A stretch of 64,000 nucleotides of DNA, from assembly GCA_003290465.1 (NCBI GenBank), contig CP030759.1, forward strand, positions 1,889,144 through 1,953,143, given 5' to 3'. The notes under the pieces are model-generated. The model was not told where the DNA came from, did no database searches, and saw nothing but the letters and a program-made list of their open reading frames with translations. Below are positions 27,088 through 52,531 of the stretch, in pieces (position 1 is the stretch's first letter; each line of letters opens with the position of its first letter). The position numbers and the translations under genes are program-made. Origin of the DNA: Candidatus Sumerlaea chitinivorans (lineage in GTDB: Bacteria; Sumerlaeota; Sumerlaeia; Sumerlaeales; Sumerlaeaceae).

Positions 27088-28773
27088 CTAAAACTTCACG
27101 ACGACGATGGTGATGTCGTCGAATTGCTCGGTTGTGGCGCGGAAGAGCACAGTGGCTTCATAGATTTCGTCCCGGAGCTCCTCAGCGGATAGGTGAAGGT
27201 TGTTGCGCACAACCTCGATCAGTCGTTCCATGCCAAAAACCTGGTTGGCAGCATTGTGCGTGTCCGTGACCCCATCAGTCACAAGGACCAGAGTATCCCC
27301 TTTTTCGACCGGCAAAGTCTCAGCCTCGTAATCCACAAACTCCATAATGCCGAGGAAGCATCCGCCGGTCTCAAGCTTCCGATACTCTCCTGAGGGTTTG
27401 AATAAGAGGGGCGGCATGTGGCCGGCATTCGTGTATTCGAGAGTCCGGCTTTTCGGATCGAAAACAGCATAGACCATCGTCACGAACATGTTGTTCGTTG
27501 CATCCTTGCAGGCCCAGCTGTTGATCGCTCCCATAAGCACGTTGGCAGGCAGATCGTAGCGCACGTGGGTTTCCATGCGGACACTCGCACGGATTGTGGC
27601 CGTTAGGATGGCAGCGGGCATGCCCTTCCCACTAACGTCGGCCAGCACAATTGCGGTACGACCGTCCGAAAGTTCAAAGAAATCGTAGTAGTCGCCGCCG
27701 ACTTTGTGAGCTGGAACGCTCATCGCGGCGAAGGTGACGCCGGGGATCTTGGGATAGGACTTCGGCAACAGGTTGACCTGGATCGAGCGCGCGAGCTCCA
27801 GCTCTTTCTCGAGTTTTTGACGTTCCAGCGCTTGCCGATAGAGCCGCGCGTTTGCTATCGCCAATGCGGCTTGGTTGGCGATGCCGGTGAGGAGTTCAAG
27901 GTCGTCGTTGGTGTAGTAGGTCGTGCTGGGCACTTGCGAATCCACATAGATGACTCCCAGCACTTCATTCTTTGCGACTAATGGCACGCTCATGGCGGAG
28001 CGGATTCGCCCAGCGATCACGCTCTCGTTTGCGGCGAAACGCACATCGGAAGGCGCATCAGAAACAAGAATCGCAACCTGTTCCGCCATGCACCGTTCAA
28101 CAATTCCCCGGCTGATACTGATTTCATCTGTAGCATCCTCCCGCACTCGCACGACCACAGGTTCAAGCGTCTGGTCGACCTCATCGCGCAGCAGGATAAT
28201 CCCGCGGTCAGGAGCAATAACGTTCCAGATGATATCCATCAGCTTGTGCAGCAGCTCGTCCAAATCGAAGATCGCACGGATGGTGTCGGCGACTTGGTAA
28301 AGCACTTTGAGTCGCTCAAAAGGATCGCGAAGAAGCTCGCGACGAATTGGCGCAGTTCCGCCGAAATCGCTGGAGCCGGCCACGGGTACTTCAGCTTGCG
28401 TGCTGGGCGCGGGGGTCTCCCCTACCAGTTTTACGGCGCCCGACCGCGTGGTGTCTGCAGCGCGCGCCTCTGGCTCATCGGGATCACTTTCAAAGACTAA
28501 CGAGGTGTCGCCAATCTTGATCCGATCGCCGTTCTTGAGCTGGATCCGCCCCACCAACGGCTTGTCGTTGACCAGTGTCCCGTTTTTACTACCGAGGTCT
28601 TCGAGAACAAAACCCAACCGATGGTGCCGCAACACGGCATGATGGCGGCTAACCCGCTTGTCAATAATCTGAACTGTACACGACGCACTGCGGCCAATGG
28701 TGACCGCGTCTTCGTTGTTCAGTGGATATATCATGCCGGCTTCGGCGCCGGTCTCTACGATCAGCCTTGCCAT
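27088..28773 (-). CDS. FHA-GAF-PP2C (SpoIIE/RsbU-type) protein phosphatase
   Basis: 561 residues in three parts. An N-terminal forkhead-associated domain (about 1-100) has GRSASCTVQI, SRHHAVL and DLGSKNGTLVND, the phosphothreonine-binding residues. A GAF domain (about 145-325) has RIRSAMSVPLVAKNEVLGVI. A SpoIIE-type PP2C phosphatase (about 355-561) follows with VGGDYYDFF, VLADVSGKGMPAAIL and LVLVTDGVTD, the Mn-binding aspartates. ATG at 28773 begins exactly at the FHA strand MARLIVETG; an upstream start at 28887 adds 38 residues without homology. It should dephosphorylate Ser/Thr proteins when its FHA partner or GAF ligand is bound. The receptor kinase at 46.8 kb is a plausible opponent (inference). 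Confidence 0.9.
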   Translation of the reverse strand: MARLIVETGAEAGMIYPLNNEDAVTIGRSASCTVQIIDKRVSRHHAVLRHHRLGFVLEDLGSKNGTLVNDKPLVGRIQLKNGDRIKIGDTSLVFESDPDEPEARAADTTRSGAVKLVGETPAPSTQAEVPVAGSSDFGGTAPIRRELLRDPFERLKVLYQVADTIRAIFDLDELLHKLMDIIWNVIAPDRGIILLRDEVDQTLEPVVVRVREDATDEISISRGIVERCMAEQVAILVSDAPSDVRFAANESVIAGRIRSAMSVPLVAKNEVLGVIYVDSQVPSTTYYTNDDLELLTGIANQAALAIANARLYRQALERQKLEKELELARSIQVNLLPKSYPKIPGVTFAAMSVPAHKVGGDYYDFFELSDGRTAIVLADVSGKGMPAAILTATIRASVRMETHVRYDLPANVLMGAINSWACKDATNNMFVTMVYAVFDPKSRTLEYTNAGHMPPLLFKPSGEYRKLETGGCFLGIMEFVDYEAETLPVEKGDTLVLVTDGVTDTHNAANQVFGMERLIEVVRNNLHLSAEELRDEIYEATVLFRATTEQFDDITIVVVKF

Positions 28774-28922
28774 CGTCGAGTTCAATTCTATGCGTGCGGC
28801 ATTGATGAGATAAAGAAGAAAATTGCTCAGCCTTGGCAAGCAAGCGGAAAGAAGGACCGCCCCTGCTACCTCGCTTGGAAGTAGCATCGCCCCTGTCTGC
28901 CTGCAGGCGAGGCCGGTACGCT

Positions 28923-46043: not shown

Positions 46044-46637
46044 ATGGCTCGAATCCTTGGGATCAGTGGGAGTCTTCGGGAAGGTTCCCACGCACACGTG
46101 TTGGTGCGCCTTGCATTGGATGCAGCCCGGAAAGCTGGTGCAGAAGTTGAACTCTTGGATTTGCGCGAGTGGTTTCTACCGCTTTTTGAAGCCCACAAAT
46201 CCTATGGGGACCACCCTATCGTTTCCAAAGTGGTGCAGAAAATTCGTGATGCCGAAGGTTACATTGTCGGCAGCCCAGAGTACCACGCCAGCATGAGCGG
46301 TGCCCTCAAAAATCTCTTCGATTTTGTCTACACTGAGCTTTCGGGAAAGCTGTTTGGTCTGGTGATTGCGACCGGCGGATCCCAAGGCGTCGCGTGCGCT
46401 GATAATTTACGTGCGTGTATTCATTCGTGTCACGGGTGGACACTCCCCTACATTGCAGCTGCTCGCTTGGCGGATTTTGACGAACAGGGCAATTTGAGAA
46501 ACGAGCAAGTCCGCGACCGCCTCGAGCGAATCGGCCGAGACGTCGCAATCTATGCGCCACTTCTGTGGCAGCAATTCAAAGCAGACCAAGCGCTGCCGCC
46601 GGGGCCAACGCGCGGCTTCGCTGAGTGGGCTCTCTAA
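46044..46637 (+). CDS. NADPH-dependent FMN reductase family protein
   Basis: 197 residues of flavodoxin-like fold. ILGISGSLREGSHAHVLVRL is the FMN phosphate loop, and GYIVGSPEYHASMSGALKNLFDFV is the classic second FMN-binding segment. LVIATGGSQGVACADNLRA supports the same family (PF03358), which includes azo- and quinone reductases. Cytoplasmic, reducing quinones or flavin with NAD(P)H. It diverges from thiE across a 159-base gap and is followed by a probable terminator at 46715. Confidence 0.9.
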   Translation: MARILGISGSLREGSHAHVLVRLALDAARKAGAEVELLDLREWFLPLFEAHKSYGDHPIVSKVVQKIRDAEGYIVGSPEYHASMSGALKNLFDFVYTELSGKLFGLVIATGGSQGVACADNLRACIHSCHGWTLPYIAAARLADFDEQGNLRNEQVRDRLERIGRDVAIYAPLLWQQFKADQALPPGPTRGFAEWAL

Positions 46638-46782: not shown

Positions 46783-49700
46783 ATGATGCGAAAACGCCAC
46801 GTAGGGGGGTATATCGTAAGTATTGCATGGCTGTTGTGCACACTTAGCGTATGGCCAGCCGACGTTAAGATCCGCACGACGACATTAGGTTTTCCGTCTC
46901 CCAATGATCCCTGCTTGTATGACGTGGACGGGGATGGGCGCTTTGAAGTAGTGGTGAGCGGCGTTCATGGGACGGTTAGGGCCTTTGAATTGCCCTCGCT
47001 CCGCTCACTCTGGAAGCAAACTGTGGGGGGCACGGGGTTGACGGCACCCGCAGTGGGAGACTTCACAGGCACGGGCGAACCGATCATTGCACTGGCCAGC
47101 CAACAGGGGGAGGTCGTCCTACTCCATGGAGCGTCGGGTGTTCCGCTCGCCCAGTATCGTCTGCCACGTGGCGTGACGGTGGCGCCCACTGTTATGCCCG
47201 CCGAAACTTATCTCGGCAGAGTCTGTGACGCCCTCGTGCTGTGCGATGAGGTGGGCGACATCCACGTGCTCGCATTCGAACAGGGACAAATAGTGGAGAA
47301 ATTTCTCATTCCAAACAATTTCGCCCGCGGCAGTCTACTGCCACAAGGTATGGGGCGGATCAATTATCCTGCCTCGGTGGGTGACGTGGATGGAGATAGT
47401 CGGCCTGAGATCGTCGTGGGGACCGCATTAGGAAAGGTCGTCGCGTTGCGACCGGACCGCCCAAACGAGTGCTACGTCTGGCATGGTCCACAAGGTTCAG
47501 CAATCAGTTCCAACATCGTCATTGCAGACTTCTTCGGCTTGGGGCGCAACGCCCTCGCCTTCGCCACCGACAAAGGAAATGTACCCATTGTCATAGTAGA
47601 TCCCGACAACCCAACGGAACGCCCGATGCGAACGGTGGTGGAGCAGTTGGGCTTAGCAGGCCCGCCCAATGGCCACCTACTCGCTGCGGATTTCGACGGG
47701 GACGGCACCCCAGACTTGATCGGGGCCTCTGGGGTTGCGGTGACCGCTTTTCGCGCTTCCATGGGGATGGCGCTGTTCGGTCCACCCTATTCAGCCAATT
47801 TCCCACCGTTTAGCCCGTTTGGGTTAGCCCAACTCAGAAGCGGCCGCTTCTGCGCCGTCTTCGCGGATTCGGGCAAAATGGTCCACCTCTATACCCCAAC
47901 CCACACCCAAGAGGGAACGCGCTTCAATTCTTCTGAAAGTTTCAACTCGCTACCGCTCGTGGGAAATCTTACCGGCGATGGCAGGGTCGAATGCGTGTTT
48001 CTGGCGCGCAATAAAGAGCGTTTAGCTTACGGCGTGCTCGAGGCAGCAGCCGCCTCCGATTGTCTTCCGACGCTGGCGTTTGGCGGAACGTTTCATCGCG
48101 ACGGCTACCTAACGACGGCGGCGTTGGTTCAACTGGAGGCCCGGACGGCTCGATTCCGCGAGCTGGTCGAACAAAAAGTTCGCGTAGCTCAAGAACAGTA
48201 CGACAATGGCAATTACGGCGAAGCACTGGCCTCCGCGCAGGATGCACTTACTCTCTTACCCAGTCACCCTGTGGCAAAAAGCTTGGCCCACAAAGCGGAT
48301 TTGCGCGTCTATTGGGTGCGGTATGTCAGCATTGCCGGGGCAATCATCACTGCCGTGGCTCTGGCGAGCTGGATCACGGCACGGCTTGTTCGGCGGCGCA
48401 CTCGTTTGAGCCAAGCTTCCCGGTTATTAGCCATGCGCAATTATCTACCGGCAATCAGTCTCCTTAAAGAGCTGCTCTCGCGCCAGCCGAACAATCGCGA
48501 AGTGATCCTGTTGCTCGCACAGGCGTACGTAGATTGGCAGCATTATCCAGCCGAATCCATTCCAGTGTTACGAATTGCGCATAAGCTTCTGCCAGAGAAT
48601 CAGGGGATCACGCTGGCCCTCGCTCACGCATACGCCGAAGCGGGTGCGGAAGACCAAGAAGCACTCGAACTCTATGAGATTGCGACCGCCTTGATGGAGA
48701 GCGGGCGCGGTGCGATTGCATATCGTGCAGGGCGAATTTTAGAGCGGAATGGAAAGCTCGAACAAGCGCTTCGCTACTACCGAGTTGCCGAACGAGATGG
48801 GTGCGAAGAAGCCGATGTGGTGGAACGCATGGCGGACCTGTATGTAGCCACTGGCACTGCCAATGAGAAGTGCTTGCCAGTGCTTGAGAAGGTTGCGCCT
48901 TCGCGCACGCAAGACGCACGCTTCCTCGAGGCCCTTTGCCATGCCTATGCGGCTGCCAAACAAGTGGGCGACAAAGCCCGCTCCGCAGCAAGCAATCTAC
49001 TTGCCCTCGAACCGAACTCTGTCATTGCCCTACGTCAGCTTGCAAAATGCGAACTCCAGGCCGGGCGGCCGGAGCAAGCCCTCTCCTTTGCGGAACGAGC
49101 GTACGAGATCGAGCCAACGGACGCAGAGAATCTATTGGTTCTGAGCTACTGTTACCTGAGCTGTGAGCGGCTGGATGGCCGAGCCATCGAAGTGTACCGT
49201 AAAGCGCTCACCATGGAACCGGAAAACCCCAGTCTGCTGCGGATGATTGGTCTGGCACTGGCACAGTCGGGGGTGATGAACGACGAAGACTATGAACTTC
49301 TCCGCCGTGCAGTTGGGGCGAATCCAATTGTGGATGAGCTGTGGACAGCATTGGCAACAGCAGCCCGTCAACGTGGGGATCACACGCTCGCGATTGAGGC
49401 CCTGGAGAAGCTCGTCGAGCTGGGCGTGGAGTCGAGTAACATTCTGTGTATGTTGGCCGAAGAGTACGCACTCATTGGCGACTACTCGGTGAAGACCATC
49501 CCCGCTTACGAGGGGGCGCTTCGCGTCGACCCGGCGAACTCCGCATATCAACGGGCTCTCGCCCGGGCCTACATCGCAGCGAAACGTGCCGACGCGCCCG
49601 TGCTCGAATTCATGGAAAACGTTTTTTCGCAAAATCCTACGGAATTGGCGATCGGGGAATATCTCGCGGAGCACTATTTGCAACACCAGCGATTCGACGA

Positions 49701-51618
49701 CGCGACAAAATTAGCCCGCTGGCTCCTTCAGAGTGATAAGGAAAACGAACACTACCAGAAGCTCTATGCCCGAGCATCGCTGGGTGCCAACCGGCTGGAC
49801 GAGGCCATCCGACACTACGAATTCCTGCTCCACTCGCATCCAGACGACCGAGAAGCTCAAATCAACCTTGCTGTAGCTTTGGCGGGGAAATTCCGCCTCG
49901 ACGAGCAGGCCGCGCAGCACTATGTGAGCGCCCTGAGATTAGCGCCTAACCTGACCCAGGTGCGCTTGCTTTTGGCCCGCCATTACGCGCAACAGGGGCA
50001 TTACGGCTCCGCACTCGATCAACTGCGGGAAGTTCTGCGGATCGACCCGAAGCATCAGCCGCGGGTACTCGAAGAAGTCCGCTATTATCTCGTGCAAGCG
50101 CCCGACCGCCCGGATCTCAGGTGGTTTTTGGTCGATTTGCTCATTGAGGCCGGCTCGCTTGACGAAGCTTGCGAACAGTTGGAGGAACTTTTTGCGCTGG
50201 ATCCGACTCAAACACGTGCAATGCTTCAAGCTTACGATCGCATTCTGAGCAAAGACCCGAACCGCTTTGCTGCCTTGCTACAAAAGGGACGCATTCTCAT
50301 GGCTCAAGGCCGCATTGAGGAAGCGCGACCTTTACTGGAGCGCGCCCACCAGATCGAGCCGCGCGACGCCGAAGTGCGAAACGAACTCGAGTCGCTCTAC
50401 GAGCATCTGCTCACAAAATCCGATAATATCGGCATTCGGTTCGAGCTGGCCAAACTCTACTATAGCGAAGGGAACTACGACCGGGCAATTGCCGAGTTTC
50501 AAAAAACAGCGCAGGATTTCCGTTTTGAGAACGAATCGCTAAAAATGCTCGGCCTGTGCTTCATGGGCAAGGGCATGCTGGAGTTTGCGTTGCAAGAGTT
50601 TCAGAAGCTGGTGCTCGACAACGAATTGAAGGAAATCCTCTACGAACTGGGCCAACGCTACGAAGCGAAAGGCGACTTTGTGGGTGCGAAGCAGGTGTAT
50701 CGGATGCTCTTCACAGCGGATGTGACATTCCGCGACGTCAAACAGAAGTTTGAAATGCTGGCGGGAGCAACGAGTGACCCACTCCAATTCGAACGCTCCA
50801 CACTGATCACGCAATTGAGCGAACGTGCACAGTCGCGCTATGAGCTCATTGAAGAAGTGGGACGTGGAGCCATGGGAATCGTGTACCGAGCCCACGACCA
50901 TGAGTTGGACGAAATCGTGGCCCTTAAGATTCTGCCAGACAATCTATCCCAAAACCCTGACGCCCTCAATCGCTTCCGTGCGGAGGCACGCGCAGCACGC
51001 CGGCTGTCGCATCCACATATCGTGCGCATTCACGATATCGGGGAGGAAAAAGGGCGAAAGTACATCTCCATGGAGTATGTCAAGGGGACCGACCTGAAGC
51101 GCTACTTGCGCCAGAAAAAGAAACTCTCGCCGGAAGAAGTGGTGCGGCTCATGATCCCAGTGTGCGAGGCCCTCGACTATGCACACTCCAAGAACATTGT
51201 GCACCGCGATATCAAACCAGCGAATATCATGCTCACAGATCAGGGCGTACCGAAAGTCAGTGACTTTGGGATTGCAAAGGCTCTTGAGGCTACGGGCGAA
51301 ACGATTGCGGGCGCAATTATCGGGACTCCGCTCTACATGAGCCCAGAACAGATCCAAGGACAACCTGTGGATCACCGGGCGGATATTTACTCACTCGGCA
51401 TTATGATGTACGAACTGCTGAATGGCGCTCCGCCCTTTACGGCAGGGGACTTGGCCTACCAGCACTGCCGTGTCATGCCACCACCTATCGAGGGGATCCC
51501 TCAGGAACTCAACGCAATCGTGCTCAAGTGCTTGGAGAAGGATCGCGAAAAGCGCTGGTCGAGCGCAGGCGAATTGGCGCGCGCGCTGCGTGCCACGGGA
51601 CTTGCGGGGAACGCCTGA
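46783..51618 (+). CDS. Receptor-like protein kinase: FG-GAP propeller, membrane span, TPR array, Ser/Thr kinase
   Basis: 1611 residues. After a signal sequence (GGYIVSIAWLLCTLSVWPA) comes an outside region of ~480 residues with FG-GAP/VCBS motifs: DVDGDGRFEVVV (~48), DVDGDSRPEIVVG (~201), DFDGDGTPDLIG (~304) and TGDGRVECVF (~393). One span, YVSIAGAIITAVALASWITA, lies near 512, followed by RLVRRR. Residues ~540-1345 are TPR-type repeats. The kinase domain starts at ELIEEVGRGAMGIVYRA (~1352) with ATP-binding Lys1382 in VALKIL, HRDIKPAN (1474), DFG (1494) and GTPLYMSPEQI, all intact. Hanks kinases usually put the kinase first; here it is last. Calcium binding and signalling across the membrane are inferred. 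Confidence 0.92.
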   Translation: MMRKRHVGGYIVSIAWLLCTLSVWPADVKIRTTTLGFPSPNDPCLYDVDGDGRFEVVVSGVHGTVRAFELPSLRSLWKQTVGGTGLTAPAVGDFTGTGEPIIALASQQGEVVLLHGASGVPLAQYRLPRGVTVAPTVMPAETYLGRVCDALVLCDEVGDIHVLAFEQGQIVEKFLIPNNFARGSLLPQGMGRINYPASVGDVDGDSRPEIVVGTALGKVVALRPDRPNECYVWHGPQGSAISSNIVIADFFGLGRNALAFATDKGNVPIVIVDPDNPTERPMRTVVEQLGLAGPPNGHLLAADFDGDGTPDLIGASGVAVTAFRASMGMALFGPPYSANFPPFSPFGLAQLRSGRFCAVFADSGKMVHLYTPTHTQEGTRFNSSESFNSLPLVGNLTGDGRVECVFLARNKERLAYGVLEAAAASDCLPTLAFGGTFHRDGYLTTAALVQLEARTARFRELVEQKVRVAQEQYDNGNYGEALASAQDALTLLPSHPVAKSLAHKADLRVYWVRYVSIAGAIITAVALASWITARLVRRRTRLSQASRLLAMRNYLPAISLLKELLSRQPNNREVILLLAQAYVDWQHYPAESIPVLRIAHKLLPENQGITLALAHAYAEAGAEDQEALELYEIATALMESGRGAIAYRAGRILERNGKLEQALRYYRVAERDGCEEADVVERMADLYVATGTANEKCLPVLEKVAPSRTQDARFLEALCHAYAAAKQVGDKARSAASNLLALEPNSVIALRQLAKCELQAGRPEQALSFAERAYEIEPTDAENLLVLSYCYLSCERLDGRAIEVYRKALTMEPENPSLLRMIGLALAQSGVMNDEDYELLRRAVGANPIVDELWTALATAARQRGDHTLAIEALEKLVELGVESSNILCMLAEEYALIGDYSVKTIPAYEGALRVDPANSAYQRALARAYIAAKRADAPVLEFMENVFSQNPTELAIGEYLAEHYLQHQRFDDATKLARWLLQSDKENEHYQKLYARASLGANRLDEAIRHYEFLLHSHPDDREAQINLAVALAGKFRLDEQAAQHYVSALRLAPNLTQVRLLLARHYAQQGHYGSALDQLREVLRIDPKHQPRVLEEVRYYLVQAPDRPDLRWFLVDLLIEAGSLDEACEQLEELFALDPTQTRAMLQAYDRILSKDPNRFAALLQKGRILMAQGRIEEARPLLERAHQIEPRDAEVRNELESLYEHLLTKSDNIGIRFELAKLYYSEGNYDRAIAEFQKTAQDFRFENESLKMLGLCFMGKGMLEFALQEFQKLVLDNELKEILYELGQRYEAKGDFVGAKQVYRMLFTADVTFRDVKQKFEMLAGATSDPLQFERSTLITQLSERAQSRYELIEEVGRGAMGIVYRAHDHELDEIVALKILPDNLSQNPDALNRFRAEARAARRLSHPHIVRIHDIGEEKGRKYISMEYVKGTDLKRYLRQKKKLSPEEVVRLMIPVCEALDYAHSKNIVHRDIKPANIMLTDQGVPKVSDFGIAKALEATGETIAGAIIGTPLYMSPEQIQGQPVDHRADIYSLGIMMYELLNGAPPFTAGDLAYQHCRVMPPPIEGIPQELNAIVLKCLEKDREKRWSSAGELARALRATGLAGNA

Positions 51619-51883: not shown

Positions 51884-52531
51884 TTAGGCCACAGCCGTGG
51901 GTGGGGGGCCTGCTGCAACTTGAAAATGTCCGTGTGTCTCGAGGTAATCCATGATTGCTGCCACGCATTCCTCGACGCTCATCTGGTCTGTCCGGAGGTG
52001 AAGCTCGGGGGCAAGGGGTGGTTCGTAGGGGGCGTCGGGAGATACCCCAGTAAAACCTTTGATTTCACCCCGCATGGCCTTCTCGTAGAGCCCTTTGGGA
52101 TCACGAGAGGCGCACACTTCGATGGGCGCATCCACAAAGACTTCGATGAACTCCCCGGGGGCCAACAACTGACGAACCCGGTCACGATCCTCTCGATACG
52201 GGCTAATGAAGCTGGTAATCACGATGAGCCCAGCATCCACAAATAACTTCGCCACTTCGCCTATGCGCCGGATATTCTCCGCACGATCCTCGGGCGAGAA
52301 GCCAAGGTTCTTGTTGAGGCCGTGCCGAATGTTGTCGCCATCGAGGACATAAGCAACGTGCCCCTGTTGGATGAGCACTTGCTCAAGGGCCATCGCAATC
52401 GTGCTTTTGCCGCAAGCAGACAAGCCGGTCAGCCAAACGCAGCATGGTTTCTGGCGAGTGAGCGCCATACGTTCTTCGCGTGTCACGTGACCAGGATGCC
52501 ACGTGATATTGGTCGCCTTCTGTTGGGTCAT
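51884..52531 (-). CDS. cysC: Adenylylsulfate (APS) kinase
   Basis: 215 residues. Walker A is [18 protein letters not shown], with [20 protein letters not shown] for APS binding, [18 protein letters not shown] and the [21 protein letters not shown] lid segment (shown in two parts: [21 protein letters not shown]). It makes PAPS from APS with ATP, used for sulfation or assimilation. The N-terminal ~25 residues ([15 protein letters not shown]) are the usual family start. No cysD, cysN or sulfotransferase is near, so whether PAPS serves sulfonation of glycans is open. The 3' end (PPPTAVA) is slightly longer than usual. Confidence 0.95.

Follow-up and report, generated by a model that had tools for sequence, protein, structure and literature searches.

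The kinase domains closest to the one described here, among solved structures and NCBIfam models alike, are those of the PASTA kinases PknB and StkP. These are also single-pass receptors, but they carry the kinase at the N-terminus and the sensor, with its PASTA repeats, at the C-terminus. The PknB/Stk1 model NF033483 gives the present protein 341 of 450 bits over its kinase part only, and with that kinase at the C-terminus the protein falls outside the family. Plant receptor-like kinases have an ectodomain, one span and a C-terminal Ser/Thr kinase, with no TPR array between span and kinase, and resemble the receptor kinase in layout.

In a survey of cyanobacterial kinases, added domains were C-terminal with two exceptions, FHA and CHASE2 (PMC2176072). 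The CHASE2-TM-Ser/Thr kinases have, like the receptor kinase, an extracytoplasmic sensor first, a membrane part next and a Hanks kinase last (PMC2176072). Such proteins occur in Nitrospirota, Aminicenantes and Elusimicrobiota, so the reversed polarity stressed by an earlier interpretation of this DNA from its letters (the sequence-only reading), with the sensor first and the kinase last, has precedents. They differ in having a CHASE2 sensor with several spans where the receptor kinase has a propeller and one span. No Pfam TPR match lies between membrane and kinase in the three that were scanned, and their kinase domains occupy another part of the kinase tree. CHASE2 (PF05226) is present in L063, L066 and L073 and has no match listed in the receptor kinase, which does not belong with them.

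The actinobacterial PknG-GlnX-GlnH chain resembles the receptor kinase layout in that a TPR scaffold links the kinase to a signal from outside the cytoplasm (PMC8546545), and the PknG TPR domain has been proposed to couple sensing by GlnH/GlnX to substrate phosphorylation (PMC8546545). That chain, however, consists of three proteins, its TPR domain is C-terminal to a soluble kinase, and the rubredoxin or N-terminal docking region is absent from the receptor kinase; with its TPRs before the kinase and a span present, the receptor kinase is not PknG-like. Planctomycetota STKs with TPR or WD40 arrays share the single span and the long, often propeller-type repeat arrays, but their repeats are C-terminal to the kinase and mostly periplasmic (PMC11032199). 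The HSP70-TPR-kinases and TPR-kinases of Sumerlaeota have the same C-terminal TPR-kinase module and are neighbours in the kinase tree; they differ in carrying an N-terminal HSP70 or TPRs only, without propeller or span. No description of a propeller-span-TPR-kinase family was found in the papers searched; a common, already described family would have counted against the sequence-only reading. What is new is the combination of a propeller, one span, ~22 TPRs and a kinase, together with its near-universal presence in the class.

Domain order and predicted topology of the receptor kinase

The window analysed is a stretch of 64,000 nucleotides, positions 1889144-1953143 of the closed genome (3,289,105 bases) of 'Ca. 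Sumerlaea chitinivorans'; the source of BY40 is a deep thermal aquifer (PMC8092238). The features of the receptor kinase, in window coordinates, are as follows.

46783..51618, + strand, receptor kinase ORF, 1611 aa, open throughout (ORF call and translation)
46783..46863, + strand, predicted signal peptide, aa 1-27 (judged by eye from the sequence)
46864..48057, + strand, FG-GAP/PQQ-type beta-propeller, aa 28-425, predicted extracytoplasmic (Pfam, AlphaFold2, Foldseek)
46921..46938, + strand, DVDGDG loop, aa 47-52 (motif scan)
47383..47400, + strand, DVDGDS loop, aa 201-206 (motif scan)
47689..47706, + strand, DFDGDG loop, aa 303-308 (motif scan)
48115..48312, + strand, TPR-like helical pair, ~aa 445-510, predicted extracytoplasmic (AlphaFold2 helices)
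48319..48390, + strand, single membrane span, ~aa 513-536 (hydropathy in all orthologues; AlphaFold2 helix)
48442..50718, + strand, TPR array of ~22 two-helix units, aa 554-1312, predicted cytoplasmic (Pfam and structure model)
50395..50826, + strand, juxta-kinase TPR block and linker, highly conserved, aa 1205-1348 (pairwise identity 51%)
50830..51594, + strand, Hanks-type Ser/Thr kinase, RD type, complete, aa 1350-1604 (Pfam, motif alignment, nearest structures)

From N- to C-terminus the order is signal peptide, propeller, helical pair, one span, ~22 TPR units and kinase. Pfam finds FG-GAP_3 at residues 47-99, more FG-GAP matches, ten significant TPR_19 stretches and Pkinase at 1353-1594, so all three domain types proposed by the sequence-only reading are matched in the order it gave; Pfam, AlphaFold2, hydropathy and the orthologues together bear out its single ORF with propeller, span, TPRs and C-terminal kinase. 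In several orthologues the N-terminus is clearly hydrophobic and closes with an A-x-A-like site.

The FG-GAP_3 score is 43.5 bits against a cut-off of 26.9. A first AlphaFold2 model, covering residues 28-620 and built with 25 homologues, has a mean pLDDT of 89.6 and arranges 31 strands in a propeller of about eight blades. The sequence-only reading had staked its proposal on such blades, and they do form in the prediction. The nearest folds found by Foldseek are propeller chains of the KICSTOR complex, BamB and the eight-bladed Tako8 design. The end of the propeller is marked by a PWxTxGGxxxRxG motif in many rows of the alignment.

There is one strong hydrophobic span, followed by RLVRRR / RRRTR, and in the AlphaFold2 model it sits in a continuous 40-residue helix, after the helical pair and before the TPR helices. 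Hydropathy and model thus confirm the one span, with RLVRRR behind it, that had been placed between the propeller and the TPRs and kinase. Both flanks of the span are positively charged, so the topology is deduced from the signal peptide and from the fact that the kinase requires ATP. Going by known biology, the propeller would be exported and the kinase would lie on the ATP side.

A second structure model, of residues 440-1611, shows the ~22 TPR-like two-helix units at pLDDT ~90. The kinase N-lobe is poorly modelled (pLDDT ~27-51 over residues 890-990 of this model) and a TPR-kinase contact is therefore not visible in it, while the kinase part still matches PknB; StkP and PknB are the nearest solved structures. 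Pkinase (PF00069) scores 204.7 bits against a cut-off of 31.7 (E 2e-60). The sequence-only reading's complete kinase at the C-terminus is upheld: Lys1382, HRD (1474-1476), DFG (1494-1496) and the GTP...SPE stretch (from 1514) all stand at the places it gave and show little or no variation among 20 orthologues. Invariant in the 20 sequences are K1382, E1401, HRD, K1478, N1481, D1494-F1495-G1496 and the activation-loop T1507/T1515, so the catalytic Lys, alpha-C Glu, HRD and DFG of a Hanks-type kinase are all in place.

Conservation, the ligand and the proposed relay

Mean pairwise identity among 24 orthologues is 22% in the propeller, 22% in the helical pair, 17% in the span, 31% in the TPR array outside the juxta-kinase block, 51% in the last TPR block and 62% in the kinase. 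The best-conserved part besides the kinase is the last TPR block. Such a gradation fits constraint on the relay block and the kinase alongside divergence of the sensor surface.

The protein is probably a single-pass receptor Ser/Thr kinase in which envelope sensing by the propeller is relayed through the TPR superhelix to the kinase. The propeller would be periplasmic and its ligand some envelope protein or polymer rather than calcium, and binding would change how the stalk-span helix is posed or oligomerised. The signal, whose passage we infer from known biology, would then reach the last TPR block by way of the TPR superhelix, and this block would contact the kinase and control it; the long array may also hold substrates. 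Its working would parallel that of the GlnH-GlnX-PknG chain, except that a single polypeptide unites sensor, membrane part, TPR scaffold and kinase. The family makes it possible to test how a signal passes across a long repeat array to a kinase.

The sequence-only reading had counted at least four DxDGDG-type motifs in the propeller and had pointed to calcium or glycans as possible ligands. The loops exist, but only two are exact (residues 47 and 303), one is DVDGDS (201) and two are degenerate (93 and 395). It is quite unlikely that these FG-GAP loops bind calcium and that the propeller senses either calcium or a polysaccharide, for example chitin, even though the protein has two exact loops and a near one where 0.03 are expected in shuffles for the wider motif D.[DN].[DN]G, and 'Ca. 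Sumerlaea chitinivorans' is reported to degrade chitin (PMC8092238). The D.[DN].[DN]G loop is absent in 7 of 25 orthologues and its position shifts among the others, and most orthologues either lack DxDGDG loops or have them elsewhere, so that calcium loops are not a family-wide property. On this sequence comparison calcium is unlikely to be the signal of the family, and the case for it as ligand is weakened. The nearest folds also argue against a calcium or glycan receptor, since BamB and the KICSTOR propeller chain are protein-binding scaffolds, as does the genomic setting, where no glycan-active gene adjoins the receptor kinase gene.

Spread of the family and its interrupted members

When 60 relatives were searched at the protein level, almost all genomes of the class proved to have a long orthologue with the same domain order. 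ORFs that are not cut off mostly measure 1530-1820 aa and can be aligned over the whole stretch between the propeller and the end of the kinase. About 25 essentially full-length Sumerlaeota ORFs align collinearly in the propeller-span-TPR-kinase order, span included, and so do two from outside the phylum (L154 and L155). With this order repeated in dozens of genomes at ~27-55% identity, the layout is far beyond chance: the receptor kinase is a real, old, lineage-typical family with an unusual layout, not a one-off fusion. In a deep bacterial lineage almost every member carries a gene laid out like a plant receptor, with an ectodomain, one span and the kinase at the end, and with ~22 TPR units between span and kinase.

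The sensor has a match in 37 of the 40 Sumerlaeota genomes and in 36 of the 39 within the class; the only genome examined outside the class, G039, has a weak sensor match to a different, 542-aa ORF. No match came from G006, G011 or G035, whose completeness is 66-75%; in G035 a fragment of a TPR-kinase lies at the edge of a contig. Every one of the 20 class genomes that are >=90% complete and <=5% contaminated has the sensor.

Outside the phylum, a profile of propeller and span was searched against 386 genomes across bacterial families, and a broader profile against a largely overlapping 385, with the best three candidates per genome scored. The matches were mostly propellers alone. End-to-end homologues were found in 2 of some 400 sampled genomes, G167 and G304, where the match continues through the span and the ORFs, of 1438 and 1411 aa, contain every part in order, kinase included. 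The two genomes belong to one small phylum and are its only members in the sample; further occurrences outside Sumerlaeota are possible beyond the genomes searched. A scan of genome contigs with the single receptor kinase protein as query gave no match, and the matches listed by an alignment-based contig scan were mostly kinase domains, so that this listing sets no limit to the distribution. The propeller kinases of the class cluster together in the kinase tree, except for the two family f3 sequences, which adjoin L165 with weak support, and this cluster lies within a larger TPR-kinase group. The homologues from G167 and G304 are close by, on weak joining branches.

Some members lack an intact kinase. 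The protein of G004, a genome from the same taxonomic family as the present one, consists of propeller and span only (L052:7338-9008, 556 aa); its ORF ends just past the span, with another gene beyond. In G001 (L040) and G014 (L020), which belong to different families, a TAG stands at the codon of the invariant Tyr1536 in the kinase C-lobe, and the coding sequence past it stays well conserved. Among 40 genomes only these two propeller kinases have a DI-stop-SLG sequence with TAG. An altered genetic code was considered for them and is unlikely, the other kinases listed from these genomes being without stops. The kinase may be dispensable in these three lineages, or these may be assembly errors.

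The natural propeller-plus-span version in G004 and the stop codons in G001 and G014 would also suit a protein that is mainly a scaffold, holding a membrane complex in place by its propeller and TPR array, with a kinase that is secondary or being lost. We consider this very unlikely, since the kinase is the best-conserved part of the protein and its catalytic residues do not vary across 20 sequences. For the relay from propeller to kinase, the propeller-only G004 version offers a ready comparison.

Sibling kinases and gene neighbourhoods

The juxta-kinase block (1205-1348) is common to other TPR-kinases of Sumerlaeota and of other phyla, and matches to these relatives begin near residues 1098-1200. 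Since siblings with other N-terminal modules share it, block and kinase behave as one swappable TPR-kinase output module. In the same genome the module follows an HSP70 in one protein (1149 aa), TPRs alone in a second (871 aa) and a span with TPRs in a third (901 aa), so a C-terminal kinase behind TPRs is not peculiar to the receptor kinase. N-terminal kinases of the usual type also occur in this genome.

A wider idea, which we hold to be quite improbable, is that a class-defining single-copy kinase reads the state of the envelope through its BamB-like propeller and controls cytoplasmic physiology through the swappable module, while the HSP70 of the siblings reads protein folding inside. If so, the class would have matched proteostasis kinases for outside and inside, built on one module. 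Whether Sumerlaeota built several receptors by exchanging the input part of one TPR-kinase module can be tested with these proteins.

HSP70-TPR-Ser/Thr kinase fusions of ~1090-1260 aa were observed at L140:1399-4848 (the same genome as the receptor kinase), L148, L152, L196, L197 and L200. They are spread across the phylum, including G039 outside the class, and a literature search found no description of them. Other genomes of the class encode soluble TPR-kinases (L149 and L150; 1416-1451 aa) that lack a span and end in the kinase.

The receptor kinase gene has an FMN reductase gene upstream (46044-46637) and an adenylylsulfate kinase gene downstream on the opposite strand (51884-52531), an order kept only in close relatives. 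Across 20 neighbourhoods no class-wide operon partner was found, linkage being kept only among near relatives. A role in anti-phage defence was considered and rejected: the PADLOC matches are generic and fall in the kinase domain only.

In families f3 and f4 a lipoprotein gene and a gene that we take from its sequence to be hslU lie downstream of the propeller kinase, directly in G010 and G018 and, in G009, beyond one convergent ORF; family f13 has this lipoprotein behind the HSP70-TPR-kinase. The lipoprotein is class-wide, ~210-300 aa, without a Pfam match and often beside hslU (L044:12325-12984, L188:4492-5202, L196:5170-5922). These neighbourhoods, together with the place of BamB among the best Foldseek matches, could mean that the BamB-like propeller has envelope proteins, or the machinery that assembles them, as its binding partners and that the kinase reports envelope stress, possibly with this lipoprotein. 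We regard that as unlikely. Followed across the phylum, the lipoprotein-hslU pair is away from kinases in most genomes, the present one included; the association was found after the fact, and the likeness to BamB is general to PQQ-type propellers. The lipoprotein-hslU neighbourhood is a lead only, and the preferred reading is still the relay of an envelope signal through the TPR superhelix.

Genome-wide there are 11 FHA matches and one PP2C_2 match, candidates for phospho-readers and for an eraser, none of them linked to the receptor kinase. Within the window, the ORF at 27088-28887 on the - strand has an FHA domain at ~28510-28704 and resembles an FHA-GAF-histidine kinase ORF of another class genome.
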